Of a DNA stretch of 64,000 bases, positions 39,778 through 47,689 are shown in pieces; the stretch's first letter is position 1, and every line of letters starts with the position of its first letter. The notes beneath the pieces were generated by a model. It had not been told where the DNA came from and ran no database searches. It saw only the letters and a list, made by a program, of their open reading frames with translations. Both the position numbers and the translations under genes were made by a program. This DNA comes from Bacteroidota bacterium (GTDB lineage Bacteria > Bacteroidota > Rhodothermia > JANXDC01): the NCBI GenBank assembly GCA_025998875.1, contig AP024675.1:1957549-2021548 (forward strand), written 5' to 3'.

Positions 39778-39794
39778 GGGAAAGCGGTACGCTC

Positions 39795-40823
39795 ATGAAA
39801 TCGCAGCCGGTGGCCCTGAAGGCGGCCGAGCATTTTCTGGCCCGCTTTACGGATCCGGAAGCCGATTTTGACGAGCTGGCACTGGAAGCCTTTCGGCTTC
39901 AGGCCGCCGCCAACCCCGTATACCGGGCTTACCTGCAGGCGCTCGGACTGCGTCCGGAGGCGGTCTGTTCGTGGCGCCAGATCCCCCCGCTGCCTGTGGA
40001 GGCCTTTCGATACGGACCCGTATGCGTGGGACCTCCGGAGGAAGCGGAGCTGATTTTTCAGAGCAGCGGCACGAGCGGCTCCCTGCGGAGCCGGCATTAT
40101 GTGCGGGATCGCCGTTTTTACGATCGTTCCGCCCTGGAGCACTTCCGCAGGCTGCTGGGATCGGGGCCTTTTGTGTTTGCCGCCTGGTTGCCCGGATATG
40201 TGGAGCGACCCGATGCTTCCCTGCTCTACATGGTAGAGCGGCTTATGGAGGCCTTCGGAGAGGAGGGCTCTGCGTTCGTCTATCCCAACCCCGATCGGCT
40301 GCAGGGCCTGGCCGAAAGAGCCCATCGGCGGGGATGTCCATTTGTGCTTTTCGGAGCCGCCTTTGGATTGCTGGATCTGCTCGAAACCTATGGGCCCCTT
40401 GCGCTTCCCCCCGATAGCCTTGTGATCGAAACCGGAGGCATGAAAAACCGCAGGCGGGAGCTGGATCGTCAGACCCTGCACCATCTGCTGGCCGAAGGGT
40501 TCCGACTTCCCCGGGAGCGCATCTGGTCGGAGTACGGCATGACGGAGCTCTTAAGCCAGGCATACACCCGAGGGGGTACGGTCTTTTATCCTCCTCCCTG
40601 GATGCGCTTTCGCGTTGTCGATCCGGAAGATCCCCTCGGGCCGGACCGGCCGGAGGGGGAACCCGGAGCCCTGTTGTTGTTCGATCTGGCCTGCTACTGG
40701 AGCGTCTGCGCCATCCTGACCCAGGACCGGGCTGTGCGGCGAGGGGAGGGTTTTGAGGTGCTGGGGCGTCTGGCAGGGGCTCCCCTGCGAGGATGCAACC
40801 TGTTGCTGGAGTCGGACCTGTGA
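39795..40823 (+). CDS. LuxE-like acyl-protein synthetase/acyltransferase
   Basis: A 342-residue protein of the LuxE (acyl-protein synthetase) family, part of the ANL adenylate-forming fold. The phosphate-binding motif is QSSGTSGSLRSRHY, and a later motif EYGMTELLSQAY matches the A5-like YGMTE of the family. LuxE activates a fatty acid with ATP and passes it to LuxC for reduction to aldehyde. The LuxC-like gene follows with a GTGA overlap. ATG 39795 has no strong RBS but gives the family start. Some Bacteroidota carry this pair without luciferase, as here. Confidence 0.85.
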   Translation: MKSQPVALKAAEHFLARFTDPEADFDELALEAFRLQAAANPVYRAYLQALGLRPEAVCSWRQIPPLPVEAFRYGPVCVGPPEEAELIFQSSGTSGSLRSRHYVRDRRFYDRSALEHFRRLLGSGPFVFAAWLPGYVERPDASLLYMVERLMEAFGEEGSAFVYPNPDRLQGLAERAHRRGCPFVLFGAAFGLLDLLETYGPLALPPDSLVIETGGMKNRRRELDRQTLHHLLAEGFRLPRERIWSEYGMTELLSQAYTRGGTVFYPPPWMRFRVVDPEDPLGPDRPEGEPGALLLFDLACYWSVCAILTQDRAVRRGEGFEVLGRLAGAPLRGCNLLLESDL

Positions 40824-41908
40824 ACGCGCTCCGAGAGGCGCTTCTTGAGACGGCACAGGCCTGGTGCGATCCGTCCTATCCGGTGCGCCGGCAGGCCGAG
40901 CTTCGGGCTCTTTCGGAGAACCCCTTTTTTACCCCTGAGGCCGTGGGTTATGCCATCCAGGCGCGTCTGAGCGGGCTATCCCGAGAGGCGCTCGAGCGCT
41001 GGATCGGAACGGATGCCCCGCTCAGCGAGCCGGCCCGGATCGCCATCGTGCATCCGGGCAACATTCCGCTGGTGGGATGGGAGGATCTGGTGGCCGCCGT
41101 GCTCATGGGACATGCGGTCTGGTCGCGCCCCTCGAGGCGGAATCGAGCCCTCCTGATGGCCTTTGTGCAGGACTGGCGGCGCCGCGTCCCCGGGCTTCCC
41201 GTACGCTGGATCGAGGATCTGGAGGAGGCGCTTCCGGGGGTTGACGGGCTTATCGCCTCCGGCTCGGACGAAACCGTTCGGCTTCTGCGGCAGCTTGCCC
41301 TCAAGGTCGGACTGGGCCCGGAACGCTTGCTTCTGCGGGGCCATCGCTTCGCCGTGGCCTGGTGTGAGCCCGATTGCGCTCCGGAGGATCTATTTGCGCT
41401 GGCCCGGGATAGCTGGCTCTACGAAGGTCGGGGATGCCGCAGCGTGGCCGTGATCTGGGCTCCAGCGGGGCTCGATCCGGGTCGGTTCTGGGAAGCCTAC
41501 CGCCAGTTCCGTGCGCTCTTTCCAGCCCCCCAAGCCGCTATTGAGGCACTTCGGGGGGAACGCGCCCTCTATGAGGCCCTGCGGCCCTGGTTGCCCGGCC
41601 TCTGGTCGGATCCCGCCGGACTGCTCTCCGTGGGGCCTCCGGAGCCCAGACGGCCGGGTCATGTGCGATGGACCTTCTATAGCCGACCGGAGGAGGTGCT
41701 CAGCTGGCTTGAGGCGCACCGGGACCGGATACAGGTGGTGGTTGCGCAACGCAATCCCCCCACAGGATGGGAGCCCATGTGGGCCCGGCCCGGCGAGGCG
41801 CAGTGTCCTCCCCTGGACTGGCGTCCGGATGGTGTGGATACGATCGCCTGGTTGCGCGCCATAAAGCCCCGCATCTGTTCGGATCGGGAGTCCACCTATG
41901 CGCGCTAG
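40820..41908 (+). CDS. LuxC-like acyl-CoA/acyl-protein reductase
   Basis: A 362-residue protein of the LuxC (fatty-acyl reductase) branch of the aldehyde-dehydrogenase fold. IAIVHPGNIPLVGWEDLVAAVLMGH and LIASGSDETVRLL are typical NADPH-site segments, and the nucleophile Cys is likely in EGRGCRSVAVIW. It would take the acyl group from the LuxE-like partner and reduce it to an aldehyde. GTG 40820 overlaps the LuxE stop; an ATG at 40793 is also possible. No luciferase is present, so aldehydes would feed another route (wax, hydrocarbon or lipid processing). Confidence 0.82.
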   Translation: MNALREALLETAQAWCDPSYPVRRQAELRALSENPFFTPEAVGYAIQARLSGLSREALERWIGTDAPLSEPARIAIVHPGNIPLVGWEDLVAAVLMGHAVWSRPSRRNRALLMAFVQDWRRRVPGLPVRWIEDLEEALPGVDGLIASGSDETVRLLRQLALKVGLGPERLLLRGHRFAVAWCEPDCAPEDLFALARDSWLYEGRGCRSVAVIWAPAGLDPGRFWEAYRQFRALFPAPQAAIEALRGERALYEALRPWLPGLWSDPAGLLSVGPPEPRRPGHVRWTFYSRPEEVLSWLEAHRDRIQVVVAQRNPPTGWEPMWARPGEAQCPPLDWRPDGVDTIAWLRAIKPRICSDRESTYAR

Positions 41909-43146: not shown

Positions 43147-43766
43147 GGTGGGAGCGCCTGGGGCCGGCGTGGGTGCTCTGGCTGGAGCTCGATGAGCTTC
43201 CGCAAGAGGCAGAATGGCTCTCGGAGGCGGAGCGGGAGCTGGCGGGACGCTACGGCCACCCCCGGCGGCTGCGGCAGTTCCTGGCCGGCCGATGGGCCGT
43301 ACGTCGGCTCTGGCGAGAGGTTGCCGAGCTGGAGGAACCCGTTGAGGTGATCCCCGATCCCCAGGGTCGGCCCCTGCTCTATGTGAGCGGAGAGGCGCTC
43401 ATGGACTGGGCCGTGAGCATCGCGCATTCCGGATCGCGTGTCCTGGTGGCCCTGCGTCAAGGCGGACGACTGGGGGTGGATGTGGAAGGCCAGAGGCCTC
43501 GGTCCGGGGCGCTGGTCTCTCGTCTGCTGGATGCCGAGGAGTGGGAGCTGATGCAGCGCTGGGCTCCGGAGGAGCCAATCCTGGCCGCCTGGGTGCTCAA
43601 AGAGGCCGGTTTCAAGGCGCTAGGGTCGGGTCTGCGGGCCCCGCTACGGAACCTGCGTCTGGTGGAAGAGGGGGGAAGACTACTCCTACAGGGGGTTGGT
43701 GCGCGCCTGCAAGCCCACCTGATGCGGATGGACCCCGCTTTCTGGGCGGCTGTGGCCTGGGATTAG
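43143..43766 (+). CDS. 4'-phosphopantetheinyl transferase (Sfp type)
   Basis: A 207-residue enzyme that attaches the phosphopantetheine arm to carrier proteins. Motifs are WAVSIAHSGSRVLVAL, LGVDVEGQRP (Mg-binding Asp-Val-Glu) and WVLKEAGFKALGSGL (the WxxKEA motif). Length and pattern fit the Sfp/AcpT class. It overlaps bcp by 4 bases and ends 4 bases inside the convergent Clp-fusion gene. Placed with LuxE and LuxC, it might serve a carrier protein that supplies their acyl chain, but this is inference; primary metabolism also needs such an enzyme. Confidence 0.85.
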   Translation: MRWERLGPAWVLWLELDELPQEAEWLSEAERELAGRYGHPRRLRQFLAGRWAVRRLWREVAELEEPVEVIPDPQGRPLLYVSGEALMDWAVSIAHSGSRVLVALRQGGRLGVDVEGQRPRSGALVSRLLDAEEWELMQRWAPEEPILAAWVLKEAGFKALGSGLRAPLRNLRLVEEGGRLLLQGVGARLQAHLMRMDPAFWAAVAWD

Positions 43767-46700
43767 CTTTCTAGATGCGCCCAGAGGTGCTCTTCGAGCC
43801 GGGCAAGAAGCGCCTCTCGGGAGCCATCGGGGAGGGGAAAAATGCGTACCTGCTCGGCCTGATGGGTGTGCTTGCAGAGCACGGAAAATGCGGCCAGGTA
43901 CGGCCTCCAGGCCCGTTTCGGACGATCTGTGTACCAAGACAGGGTGCGACCTTGCGGGTCGCGGACGTGCATGCGGTAGCGTGCCTCCAGGCCCGTACTC
44001 ATCTGGACCCGCCTGCGCAGGGGGCGAAAACGGACCTCCGGTCTTTCCCCTCCCCCCGTTGGGGGGAAAGGGGAGATACGTATCCGGACCTCGGCCGGCG
44101 TTCCGGAGTCCCGCAGCAGCCGATGTACCCCGGCCTCGGGAAGCAGCAGGCCGTAGGCGTTATGGCCCCGCACCAGAAGCAGCAGTCCACTGTGTGGATC
44201 CTCCGCCATGGGGATTACCTCCAGTCCCCGGCCTTCGAGGGCCTGCCTGTAGGCCAGGCCCAGCTCTAAGGCCCAGGTTTCCGATTCCGGACCCGTAGGC
44301 TCAAGCCACAGCAGGGCATCGGCGCTCGCTTCGGGATAGGCGAGCAGCTGCTCCCACTCCAGCGCCTCCATCTGCAGGACCGCCTCCCGGTAAAGGCGCG
44401 TAAGCTCCGGCCAGAGCGTTTTTTCCCGGCGGTAATGGAGGCGTTTGAGTTCTTCGAGCGTCTGCTCCAGGCGTCGGTACCGGTTCTGGATGCGGTAGCA
44501 CTGGCCCAGGGAACGCAGTTCTTCGAGCGCCTGTCTGGGGTGATCCCAGAAGGTGGGTTCCTGCATGCGCGCCTCAAGCTCCTGAATGCGCCGGCGTAGC
44601 TCCGTGACCCCCTGCCGGTCGGCCAGGGCCTGGAGGCGGCGCTCCAGCTCTTCTAGTTCGCGCTCCAGCTCGTCGGGATCCGGCATGGCCGGGAGGCGGC
44701 CGGGCTCCGGAAGGGCTGCAGGGCCCGCAGGGGGCTCGACGTGCACCCGTGTCTGCCCGTTCGGGTCGGATTCCAAACGGATCATGGAGCCCGGCTCAAT
44801 GGACCGCTCCACAAGCGCCTGCGCCAGGGGAAGGGTGATGAGCCGCTCTACGGCGCGTTTGAGAAATCGCGCCCCATATCGGGGACTGTAACCCTCTTCG
44901 ATGAGCCGATCCACGAGTCGTTCATCGATCTCCACGGTGAGCTGTTTGCGCAGAATACCTTCCCGCGCGATGACCTTGCCAATCTCCCGATAGGCGATCC
45001 GGCGCACGACCTCCGCAGAGAGGGGTTTGAAGTAGATGAGCTCGATGCGGTTTAAGAACTCCGGACGAAAATAGCGCTCCAGCTCCGCCTGCACAGCGCG
45101 CCGCAGGGCCTCATCGCTCATGCTCTCCTCAAACCCGATGGGCTTCTGGCCATAGAGCTTGGAGCCAATGTTGGAGGTCATGATGATGATCGTGTTGCGG
45201 AAGTCCGTCGTGCGCCCCTGACGGTCGGTCAGTCGGCCCTCATCGAAGACCTGTAGCAACAGGTCGTATACGTTGGGATGGCATTTCTCGAACTCATCGA
45301 GCAAGACCACGGAGAAGGGCTGTTCCTGGATGGGACGCGTGAGCTTGCCGCCCCGGTCATCGAAGCGTTCCCCGATGAGGCGTTCCCAGGAATTCCACTC
45401 CATGTACTCGGACATATCCAGCCGCACCATCCGCTCGGGGCTGCCGAAAAGATAAGCGGCCACGGTCTTGGCGAATTCCGTCTTGCCCACCCCGGTGGGA
45501 CCCAGACACAGATAGGTGGCCAGCGGCCTGGAGGGATCGTGCAGGCCGGATTTGAGCAGGGCGAGCGTGCGCTTGATCGCCTCGACGGCTTCTTCCTGAC
45601 CGAGCACGCGTTCGCTAAAGAACCGGTGTACTTCGTCTAAATCCAGCCGGGCTCGATCGTCTATAACCACGGCGGGCAGACCGGTTGTCTCCTGAAACTG
45701 CGATACCACGACCTCGGCCGTGAGCACCTGACGCGCGGCCAGCTGACCCCGATGGGCCAGGCGGGCGAGCATTTGCTTGAGGAAATCGATCGCCTTGCCG
45801 GGAAATTTCTGGTAGGGCAGAAAACGACCGGTGAGTTCGATGATACGCTGTACGACTTCGGGCAGGATTTCGACCCCGTAGCGTTGGCCCAGGTCTCTGG
45901 CTACGGCCATGAGGATGCGGTCGAGCTCCTCAGCTCGGGGCTCCTCAAGTCGTACCTGCGTGAAGACCCGCTCCAGATAGGGCGCTTGACGGAACATGTG
46001 CTTGAGCATGTCGGCCGTGGCCTCGCCGATGACGGTGATCTCCCCGCGCTCGATGAGGGGGGCTAGATAGGAGGCGAAGTTGGCCGAGGAGGTGGAGGTC
46101 GTACCGGCCCCCACGATGTTGGGCAGGTCGCGGATGTAGAGGATCACATCCCCCGCTTCCCGCATCTCTCGGGTGAGGTTGACGAGCTTGGTCTCCCACT
46201 CGCCGATGTATTTTGTGCCCGCCATCAGGTTCTGCGTGGTGGTCTCGAAGATGCGATAACCGGTCAGGGCCGGAGGGCAATGGCCCCGCTTGAGGCGACG
46301 GGCTAATTCGTAGATAACAGCTGTTTTGCCCACCCCGGGCTCACCGACGAGCACGAAACTGGAATTATCCGGTCGCTGAAGCAGGGCGTAGAGCTCCTCA
46401 AGCACGCCCTCACGTAGGTACGTGGCCGGTTGCTCTTCAACGTCGCGCAGGGTGGCTAGCTCGACGCAGGAGGTCTCCAAGACGCCTGTTAGGTGCTCTT
46501 CGCCGAATTCAGCCATGTCCACTATCCTCCATGAAATACCGGAGAAGGAGCGGGCCTTTCGGGGTTTTTTCTGGTGCAGGCTCTGCAGGAGTTCCTGGGC
46601 CCGTTTCCGCATCCATTCCGGACCCTGGGGATCGAGAGCAAGGTAGCGCTCCAGGTGCTCGCGCGCCTTTTCGAAGGCCTCCAGATGGCTGCAGTAGAGC

Positions 46701-47689
46701 AGCCCGATCCGGTAATGCAACAGCCCGTATTCGGGCTCCCGCTCCAGGGCGCGCTCGTAGAAGTGGAGGGCTTTTTCCGGCTGGCCGAACTCCACCAGCA
46801 GATCGGCGGCGGCCAGCAGAGCGATCGCGGGCCGGGGCCTTTCGGGTACCGGCAGGATCTCGGATATAAAACGGCGGCGCTTGCGGGGCAGAAAAAGGGT
46901 ATAGCCGGGAGCGGGAAACTCTTCGGCAACCCGATGTCGCAATTCCACCAGCGCGGCCTGCGCCTCTTCGGGATCCTGATCGCGAAATCGGAAGCGGCTG
47001 AGCACGTGCAGGGTTCCCGGATGATCCGGATCCAGATGCCAGGCCGTGCCCAGCAGATGGGGGAGGGTTTCCAGCGTTTCGGCCTGCAGCTCATCCTGCC
47101 GATACAGGAGTAGCTCGGCCAGCGTGAGGTAAGGATCCGGCCACTGGGGTTCCAGATCGACGGCCTCTGCGGCGCTCTCGGCGGCCAGCTCCGGATGTTC
47201 CAGCTCCAGAGCGGCTTCGGCCGCATACCAGCGCACAGGACCGCTTCGGGGGAATCGGGTTCGGGCTTGCTCGGCCAGGGCCACGGCCTCCTCCATGCGT
47301 CCGGCGCGACGCAGAAGCTCGATGCGGCTCAGGTAGAGCACGTCGGCACGCTCGGCCAGGCGTTCGCCCTGCCGCAGTATGCGCAGGGCTCGCTCTAGAT
47401 CCCCCTGTGCCTCCCAGTACCAAGCGATATGGCGGTAGAGGGTCGTCTCCGGGCCTTCTGCGGCCTCCAGATAGCTGGCCGCCTCCGCGGCCCTGCCCGC
47501 CTTCCAGAGCGCGATGCCCCGGGCCACCTGCAACCACCGCTGGCCCTCTCGATCCTGCGACGGCAGGACGGCCTCCCCGTAGGCGCCAAGCGCCTCCGTC
47601 CAGCGACCGAAAGGGCGACGCAGCAGGAACAGATCCGTGTACAGGCGGACGCGGCCGTATACGAAGGCAAGCCAGTCCCGGATCGGCAT
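43763..47689 (-). CDS. TPR - double Clp-type AAA+ - release-factor-2-like fusion protein
   Basis: A 1308-residue single open frame. Residues 1-380: TPR-like repeats replace the usual Clp N-domain. D1 (about 430-670): Walker A GEPGVGKT at 449-456, pore loop GTKYIGEWE with Tyr494, but Walker B ends ILYIRD (Arg520, Asp521) instead of D-E, and only one Arg of the ERRF finger remains (ERVF, 573-576). D2 (about 680-985): Walker A GPTGVGKT at 730-737, Walker B VVLLDE (Asp798-Glu799), Arg881, sensor 2 GAR at 939-941; the GYVG pore loop is missing (GERFDDRGGKLT, 773-784). IGF at 851-853 stands where ClpA/ClpC dock on ClpP. There is no ClpB-style middle domain. Residues 1001-1308: coiled coil with TFWDH, then NAYG and GVHRLLR as in RF2, but STGLEAR at the GGQ site. 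No clear RBS precedes ATG 47689. Confidence 0.88.
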   Translation of the reverse strand: MPIRDWLAFVYGRVRLYTDLFLLRRPFGRWTEALGAYGEAVLPSQDREGQRWLQVARGIALWKAGRAAEAASYLEAAEGPETTLYRHIAWYWEAQGDLERALRILRQGERLAERADVLYLSRIELLRRAGRMEEAVALAEQARTRFPRSGPVRWYAAEAALELEHPELAAESAAEAVDLEPQWPDPYLTLAELLLYRQDELQAETLETLPHLLGTAWHLDPDHPGTLHVLSRFRFRDQDPEEAQAALVELRHRVAEEFPAPGYTLFLPRKRRRFISEILPVPERPRPAIALLAAADLLVEFGQPEKALHFYERALEREPEYGLLHYRIGLLYCSHLEAFEKAREHLERYLALDPQGPEWMRKRAQELLQSLHQKKPRKARSFSGISWRIVDMAEFGEEHLTGVLETSCVELATLRDVEEQPATYLREGVLEELYALLQRPDNSSFVLVGEPGVGKTAVIYELARRLKRGHCPPALTGYRIFETTTQNLMAGTKYIGEWETKLVNLTREMREAGDVILYIRDLPNIVGAGTTSTSSANFASYLAPLIERGEITVIGEATADMLKHMFRQAPYLERVFTQVRLEEPRAEELDRILMAVARDLGQRYGVEILPEVVQRIIELTGRFLPYQKFPGKAIDFLKQMLARLAHRGQLAARQVLTAEVVVSQFQETTGLPAVVIDDRARLDLDEVHRFFSERVLGQEEAVEAIKRTLALLKSGLHDPSRPLATYLCLGPTGVGKTEFAKTVAAYLFGSPERMVRLDMSEYMEWNSWERLIGERFDDRGGKLTRPIQEQPFSVVLLDEFEKCHPNVYDLLLQVFDEGRLTDRQGRTTDFRNTIIIMTSNIGSKLYGQKPIGFEESMSDEALRRAVQAELERYFRPEFLNRIELIYFKPLSAEVVRRIAYREIGKVIAREGILRKQLTVEIDERLVDRLIEEGYSPRYGARFLKRAVERLITLPLAQALVERSIEPGSMIRLESDPNGQTRVHVEPPAGPAALPEPGRLPAMPDPDELERELEELERRLQALADRQGVTELRRRIQELEARMQEPTFWDHPRQALEELRSLGQCYRIQNRYRRLEQTLEELKRLHYRREKTLWPELTRLYREAVLQMEALEWEQLLAYPEASADALLWLEPTGPESETWALELGLAYRQALEGRGLEVIPMAEDPHSGLLLLVRGHNAYGLLLPEAGVHRLLRDSGTPAEVRIRISPFPPTGGGERPEVRFRPLRRRVQMSTGLEARYRMHVRDPQGRTLSWYTDRPKRAWRPYLAAFSVLCKHTHQAEQVRIFPLPDGSREALLARLEEHLWAHLES

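Follow-up and report, generated by a model that had tools for sequence, protein, structure and literature searches.

Can a bacterial protein carry the motor of a Clp ATPase and the body of release factor RF2 in one chain, and if so, what might it do? The question arises from a reading frame in the window (the whole 64,000-nucleotide stretch of DNA that was analysed), which the initial annotation had read as one 1308-residue protein with a TPR region, two AAA+ modules and an RF2-like end. Translation of the ORF at 43763-47689 on the minus strand gave 1308 residues with zero internal stops, and Pfam matches confirmed the proposed domains in the proposed order. GC content by codon position was even over the whole 43763-47689 frame and resembled that of neighbouring genes, indicating that no frameshift had joined two genes. 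The gene was solitary, with flanking genes on the opposite strand.

Each of the Pfam domains, in the order TPR, AAA, AAA_lid_9, AAA_2, ClpB_D2-small and PCRF, exceeded its own cut-off, including the three (ClpB D2, AAA lid and PCRF) for which a profile search had been suggested. E-values were 3.5e-14 for TPR_19, 1.4e-16 and 3.8e-7 for AAA and AAA_lid_9 in the first AAA+ module (D1), 7.5e-47 and 1.6e-13 for AAA_2 and ClpB_D2-small in the second (D2), and 5.5e-14 for PCRF (52.8 bits vs a cut-off of 24; residues 1032-1206). No Clp N-terminal domain appeared in the 25 highest-ranking Pfam matches listed for the protein, and the TPR region stood in its place. NCBIfam models matched the whole protein best as ClpB/ClpA, far under their cut-offs, and the tail as prfB (3.5e-19). 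The features, with the evidence for each, are as follows.

43763..47689, minus strand: whole fusion gene, 1308 aa, TPR, D1, D2 and RF2-like tail (ORF translation, codon-position GC)
46598..47497, minus strand: TPR region, approximately residues 65-364 (Pfam TPR_19/TPR_14/TPR_16)
45692..46381, minus strand: D1 AAA+ module and lid, residues 437-666, predicted not to hydrolyse ATP (Pfam AAA, AAA_lid_9; motif alignment)
46322..46345, minus strand: D1 Walker A GEPGVGKT, intact (motif alignment)
46202..46213, minus strand: D1 pore loop KYIG, tyrosine kept (motif alignment)
46127..46147, minus strand: degenerate D1 Walker B, VILYIRD replacing VILFIDE (motif alignment)
45038..45529, minus strand: D2 AAA_2 module, residues 721-884, ATPase motifs intact (Pfam AAA_2; motif alignment)
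45479..45502, minus strand: D2 Walker A GPTGVGKT, intact (motif alignment)
45359..45370, minus strand: position where D2 has lost its pore loop, LIGERFD-DRGG replacing LIGAPPGYVGYEEGG (motif alignment)
45293..45304, minus strand: D2 Walker B LLDE, intact (motif alignment)
45131..45139, minus strand: IGF tripeptide at the position of the ClpA/ClpC ClpP-docking loop (motif/loop alignment)
44777..45022, minus strand: ClpB_D2-small, residues 890-971 (Pfam)
44072..44596, minus strand: PCRF (RF2 domain 1 and the start of domain 2), residues 1032-1206 (Pfam, phmmer, AlphaFold/Foldseek)
44111..44131, minus strand: GVHRLLR, corresponding to GVHRLVR of RF2, without the SPF loop that comes next in RF2 (alignment)
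43766..44071, minus strand: last ~100 residues, without GGQ, perhaps a decayed domain 3 or 4 of RF2 (HMM vs shuffles, model)

Relatives and distribution of the fusion

An AAA+/RF2 fusion was also present in six relatives, from three families of the phylum other than that of the window protein (f18, f19 and f68), in line with the remark in the initial annotation that Bacteroidota databases hold AAA+ proteins with a PCRF domain, and PCRF scored above its cut-off in 6/6. Four came from 245 genomes of the same class (L076, L077 and L079 in f18, L078 in f19) and two from 391 genomes of another class (L126 and L127, f68). A profile of D2-small plus tail, run over 394 genomes of the phylum, separated the fusions (3e-210 to 3e-153) very clearly from the next Clp protein (2e-31). 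The same profile picked out L126 and L127, and revealed no further fusions in 123 genomes of their order. The idea that a sequencing or assembly error merged two genes, or that PCRF matched by chance, can practically be dismissed, as the frame is open with a uniform codon pattern, the scores of the tail for sequence and fold far exceed chance, and six other genomes carry comparable fusions; these relatives refute the idea of a sequence error. Judged by its sequence, the fusion is a real, rare and conserved protein. It occurs in at least seven genomes from four families and appears to put a release factor domain, joined to a protein-remodelling motor, to a use other than termination.

In a D2 tree of 65 Clp sequences, which took in the five fusions then known (L126 and L127 were found later), the fusions formed one clade (98/92); the exact position of the window protein was unsure because of its long branch. 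D2 identity was 45-49% between the window protein and the other fusions, vs 63-80% among those others, across two classes. The tail of the window protein shared 22-28% identity with the tails of its relatives and 22-26% with RF2 itself. Since it is about as far from the former as from the latter, two separate fusion events are conceivable.

The patchy distribution of the fusion is attributed to loss or transfer. A congeneric genome (G001) had the same flanking genes with only ~940 bp between them and no fusion gene, and a tblastn search of this gap for a remnant of the fusion gave no match better than E 0.25. The ~940-bp stretch that replaces the fusion gene there (L085:544-1482) had no clear coding frame. 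In a plasmid search, those of the 20 matches listed that were annotated at the match were prfB. Literature searches for a Clp-RF2 fusion found no published description, and the broad release-factor survey of Burroughs and Aravind makes no mention of Clp. The fusion represents a small, apparently undescribed family of Clp/Hsp100 ATPases. Adjoining the fusions on the D2 tree was another group of Clp-like ATPases (L080, L081, L082 and L083, family f7), several members of which were without the ClpP tripeptide; in L081 and L082 the Clp-like gene adjoined one whose product looks, by eye, like a TPR-bearing kinase.

Motor motifs and the ClpP-docking loop

Motor motifs of the fusion proteins were aligned against ClpC and ClpB of the same genome. 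D1 kept Walker A and the pore tyrosine; its FIDE motif had turned into YIRD in the window protein and into different residues in its relatives, and the pair of Arg fingers (RR) was not kept. We infer from these motifs that D1 does not hydrolyse ATP. D2 kept Walker A, Walker B, sensor 1, the Arg finger, sensor 2 (GAR) and D2-small, and is by its motifs the single ATPase ring of normal make-up. The aromatic GYVG pore loop of D2, which in ClpA touches and pulls the substrate (PMC9663308), was present in 60/60 other Clp sequences (54 of them distinct) vs 0/7 fusions, five of which were in the original comparison; L126 and L127, added later, were also without it. The initial reading of the modules as ClpA/ClpC-like needs correction, in that both depart from the usual Clp make-up by missing the D1 Walker B and the D2 GYVG loop, and the label 'unfoldase' became doubtful because the aromatic pore loop for threading is absent from D2 in all seven proteins and D1 is without hydrolysis residues.

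The fusions share with ClpA and ClpC the order D1, D2 and D2-small, the ATPase motifs of D2, the pore tyrosine of D1 and a tripeptide of the [ILV]G[FL] type, but differ in having neither a Clp N-domain nor a middle domain, in the added RF2-like tail, and in the loss of Walker B and Arg fingers from D1 and of GYVG from D2. ClpA docks on ClpP through an [ILV]G[FL]-type loop (PMC9663308). At the position of this loop 7/7 fusions had [ILV]GF, with IGF in the window protein, in a stretch where the only invariant positions besides the G and F of the tripeptide were T, S, N and G. Of the genome's own proteins, ClpC had the tripeptide and ClpB did not, and a clpP gene was found in the genome (1.4e-90). 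The loop suggests that the fusion ATPase is probably a partner of ClpP. The tripeptide could also be mere inheritance from a ClpC-like ancestor, and delivery into ClpP may fail without the aromatic loop of D2. Because D1 has lost its hydrolysis residues and D2 its gripping loop, with the ClpP tripeptide kept, the fusion family is a natural case in which to test how far the standard Clp threading model must hold for an ATPase to work with ClpP.

The RF2-like tail

The C-terminal domain follows RF2, as had been claimed. With PCRF matched at the C-terminus at 5.5e-14, phmmer against the PDB found RF2 closest (4.9e-22) and RF1 weaker (1.6e-7), and FWDH, NAYG and GVHRLLR were present in RF2 order. 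Two AlphaFold models of the tail were compared with known folds. RF2 sequences went into the first; the second used the single sequence and is the less circular test. RF2 and RF1 were the best folds in Foldseek both times, bearing out the suggested comparison with RF2, at low TM-scores (0.2-0.45) that leave the arrangement of the tail parts tentative. Model confidence was good only for approximately the first 180 residues of the tail, and in the single-sequence model it was weak around residues 83-113.

Positions invariant in 13 RF2 sequences were scored in five fusion tails. The fold positions P38, W41, A122, Y146, G179, A182, E189, G191 and H193 were kept in 5/5 tails, and G129, G131, S199, P200 and F201 in 0/5. 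The codon-contacting GAGGTE tip was thus broken, with two of three glycines gone, the stop-codon loop SPF was absent, and GGQ was absent from all seven tails. A working docking in the A site in the manner of RF2 finds no support, given the loss of GGQ and of the tip and loop that read stop codons, and the tail as a working release factor was rejected on the same losses. The genome encodes a normal RF2 with GGQ and SPF elsewhere, so the tail is not needed as a release factor. In overall likeness to RF2 (prfB, class-I) the tails have the PCRF fold, the FW motif and the core G..AY..L..E.GVH, to which the relatives add the domain-4 end; they differ by the same three losses and by sitting behind a Clp ATPase. 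With the parts for stop-codon reading and peptide release gone, the tail probably took on a new role, which we infer to be that of a docking arm.

In L076-L079 domain 4, the end of RF2, scored above 1000 shuffled controls, whereas domain 3 with its GGQ did not. Residues 1207-1308 of the window protein matched the HMMs of RF2 domains 3 and 4 no better than shuffled controls did. Alignment by hand also pointed to domain 3 there, with the domain 3 HMM at shuffle level, and the single-sequence model suggests at low confidence that these last ~100 residues are a degraded RF2 domain 3. The string RISPFPP of the window protein was considered as an SPF anticodon and rejected, because the relatives read VRVRV.PQP there and it lies past the place of the loop. 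The RF2 tip GAGGTES reads TGPES in the window protein (44285-44330, ~residues 1120-1135), a form not shared by the relatives; GP replacing GG also marks the release factor RFH (PMC1586002).

Possible functions and gene neighbourhoods

The reading that we tentatively favour is a Clp ATPase with one active ring, a probable partner of ClpP, in which the RF2 relic serves as a docking domain. An RF2-type release factor would have been fused behind D2-small and then have lost its termination chemistry. D2 would be the only power source of the hexamer, and D1 would form a collar that binds nucleotide and whose tyrosines may still hold on to a chain. The N-terminal helical repeats and the RF2 relic would position the machine beside a particular client or partner, ribosome-associated material being a candidate client of the relic, and the client would be loosened or presented, most likely to ClpP, with neither the usual threading nor an ending of translation.

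One unlikely alternative is a ribosome-linked unfoldase, whose tail docks on ribosomes, perhaps stalled ones, by contact of domain 1 with the L11 stalk or by binding in the A site, while the Clp rings pull on, or hand over, the nascent chain or a factor bound to the ribosome. The tail is RF2 by sequence and fold, and RF2 domain 1 touches the L11 stalk, with ArfA-mediated release surviving mutation of SPF (PMC5378476). A putative docking of the tail on ribosomes by other contacts, such as domain 1 on the L11 stalk, is conceivable. In eukaryotes Vms1 couples a release factor to the AAA+ protein Cdc48 (PMC6514570). The Vms1/ANKZF1-Cdc48 system likewise ties a release-factor-type domain to an AAA+ unfoldase, but its release factor is active and of the aeRF-1 superfamily, and the two are separate proteins joined by a motif. 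Weighing against ribosome-linked unfolding are the losses of the GAGGTE tip, the SPF loop, GGQ and the D2 pore loop, the predicted membrane anchors of four relatives, and the finding that no translation or ribosome-rescue gene was seen near the fusion at any locus. Should the tail bind ribosomes, bacterial translation and Clp proteolysis would be coupled directly and physically.

Similarly doubtful is a Torsin-type, non-threading remodeller that works without ClpP, in which hydrolysis in D2 would act on the ring or on partner proteins, with the N-terminus and the RF2 relic as protein-protein modules. Torsins, which are related to Clp/HSP100 proteins, have no aromatic pore loops, and their N-terminus is membrane-associated (PMC5425593). 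The fusions resemble them in that GYVG is absent from all seven, the likeness extending to D2 only, and in the membrane helix of four relatives, which the window protein does not have. The best score of the fusions against the Torsin profile PF06309, that of L126 (3.5e-4), was 21.1 bits vs a cut-off of 27. Torsins, however, are eukaryotic, with a single AAA module and no RF2 tail, whereas the fusions have two modules, retain the D1 pore tyrosine and keep [ILV]GF in 7/7 within an otherwise variable loop.

A more specific scheme, in which a retired release factor acts as a recognition arm for ribosome-associated clients or the L11 stalk and the one-ring ATPase hands them to ClpP, as a bacterial counterpart of Vms1-Cdc48, has a slim chance of being right.

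The N-termini differed among the fusions. In place of the TPRs of the window protein, the f18 and f68 relatives carry a membrane helix and a further helical region; a membrane helix followed by basic residues was predicted in L076, L077, L126 and L127 (read by eye in the last two). L078 was without an N-terminal membrane helix, and L079 was truncated at the contig end.

Comparison of the loci of f18, f19, f68 and the window showed no neighbour common to the families, and hence no conserved operon. A defence system was rejected, as PADLOC matches were limited to the AAA+ modules. In each of the three f18 loci (L076, L077 and L079) an HtrA/DegP-like protease gene (named by eye) lay beside the fusion gene and converged with it. 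The neighbours in f19 were, by eye, a gyrase-type subunit and an aspartokinase, and those in the window a phosphopantetheinyl transferase and an exonuclease. In f68 an MFS transporter gene, also read by eye, followed the fusion gene (L126:4929-7640; L127:9011-10651, the latter named from an off-frame translation), with an acyltransferase gene (by eye) between the two in L126. Elsewhere in the window, LuxE-like (6.9e-9) and LuxC-like (6.1e-6) genes lay side by side at 39789-41905.
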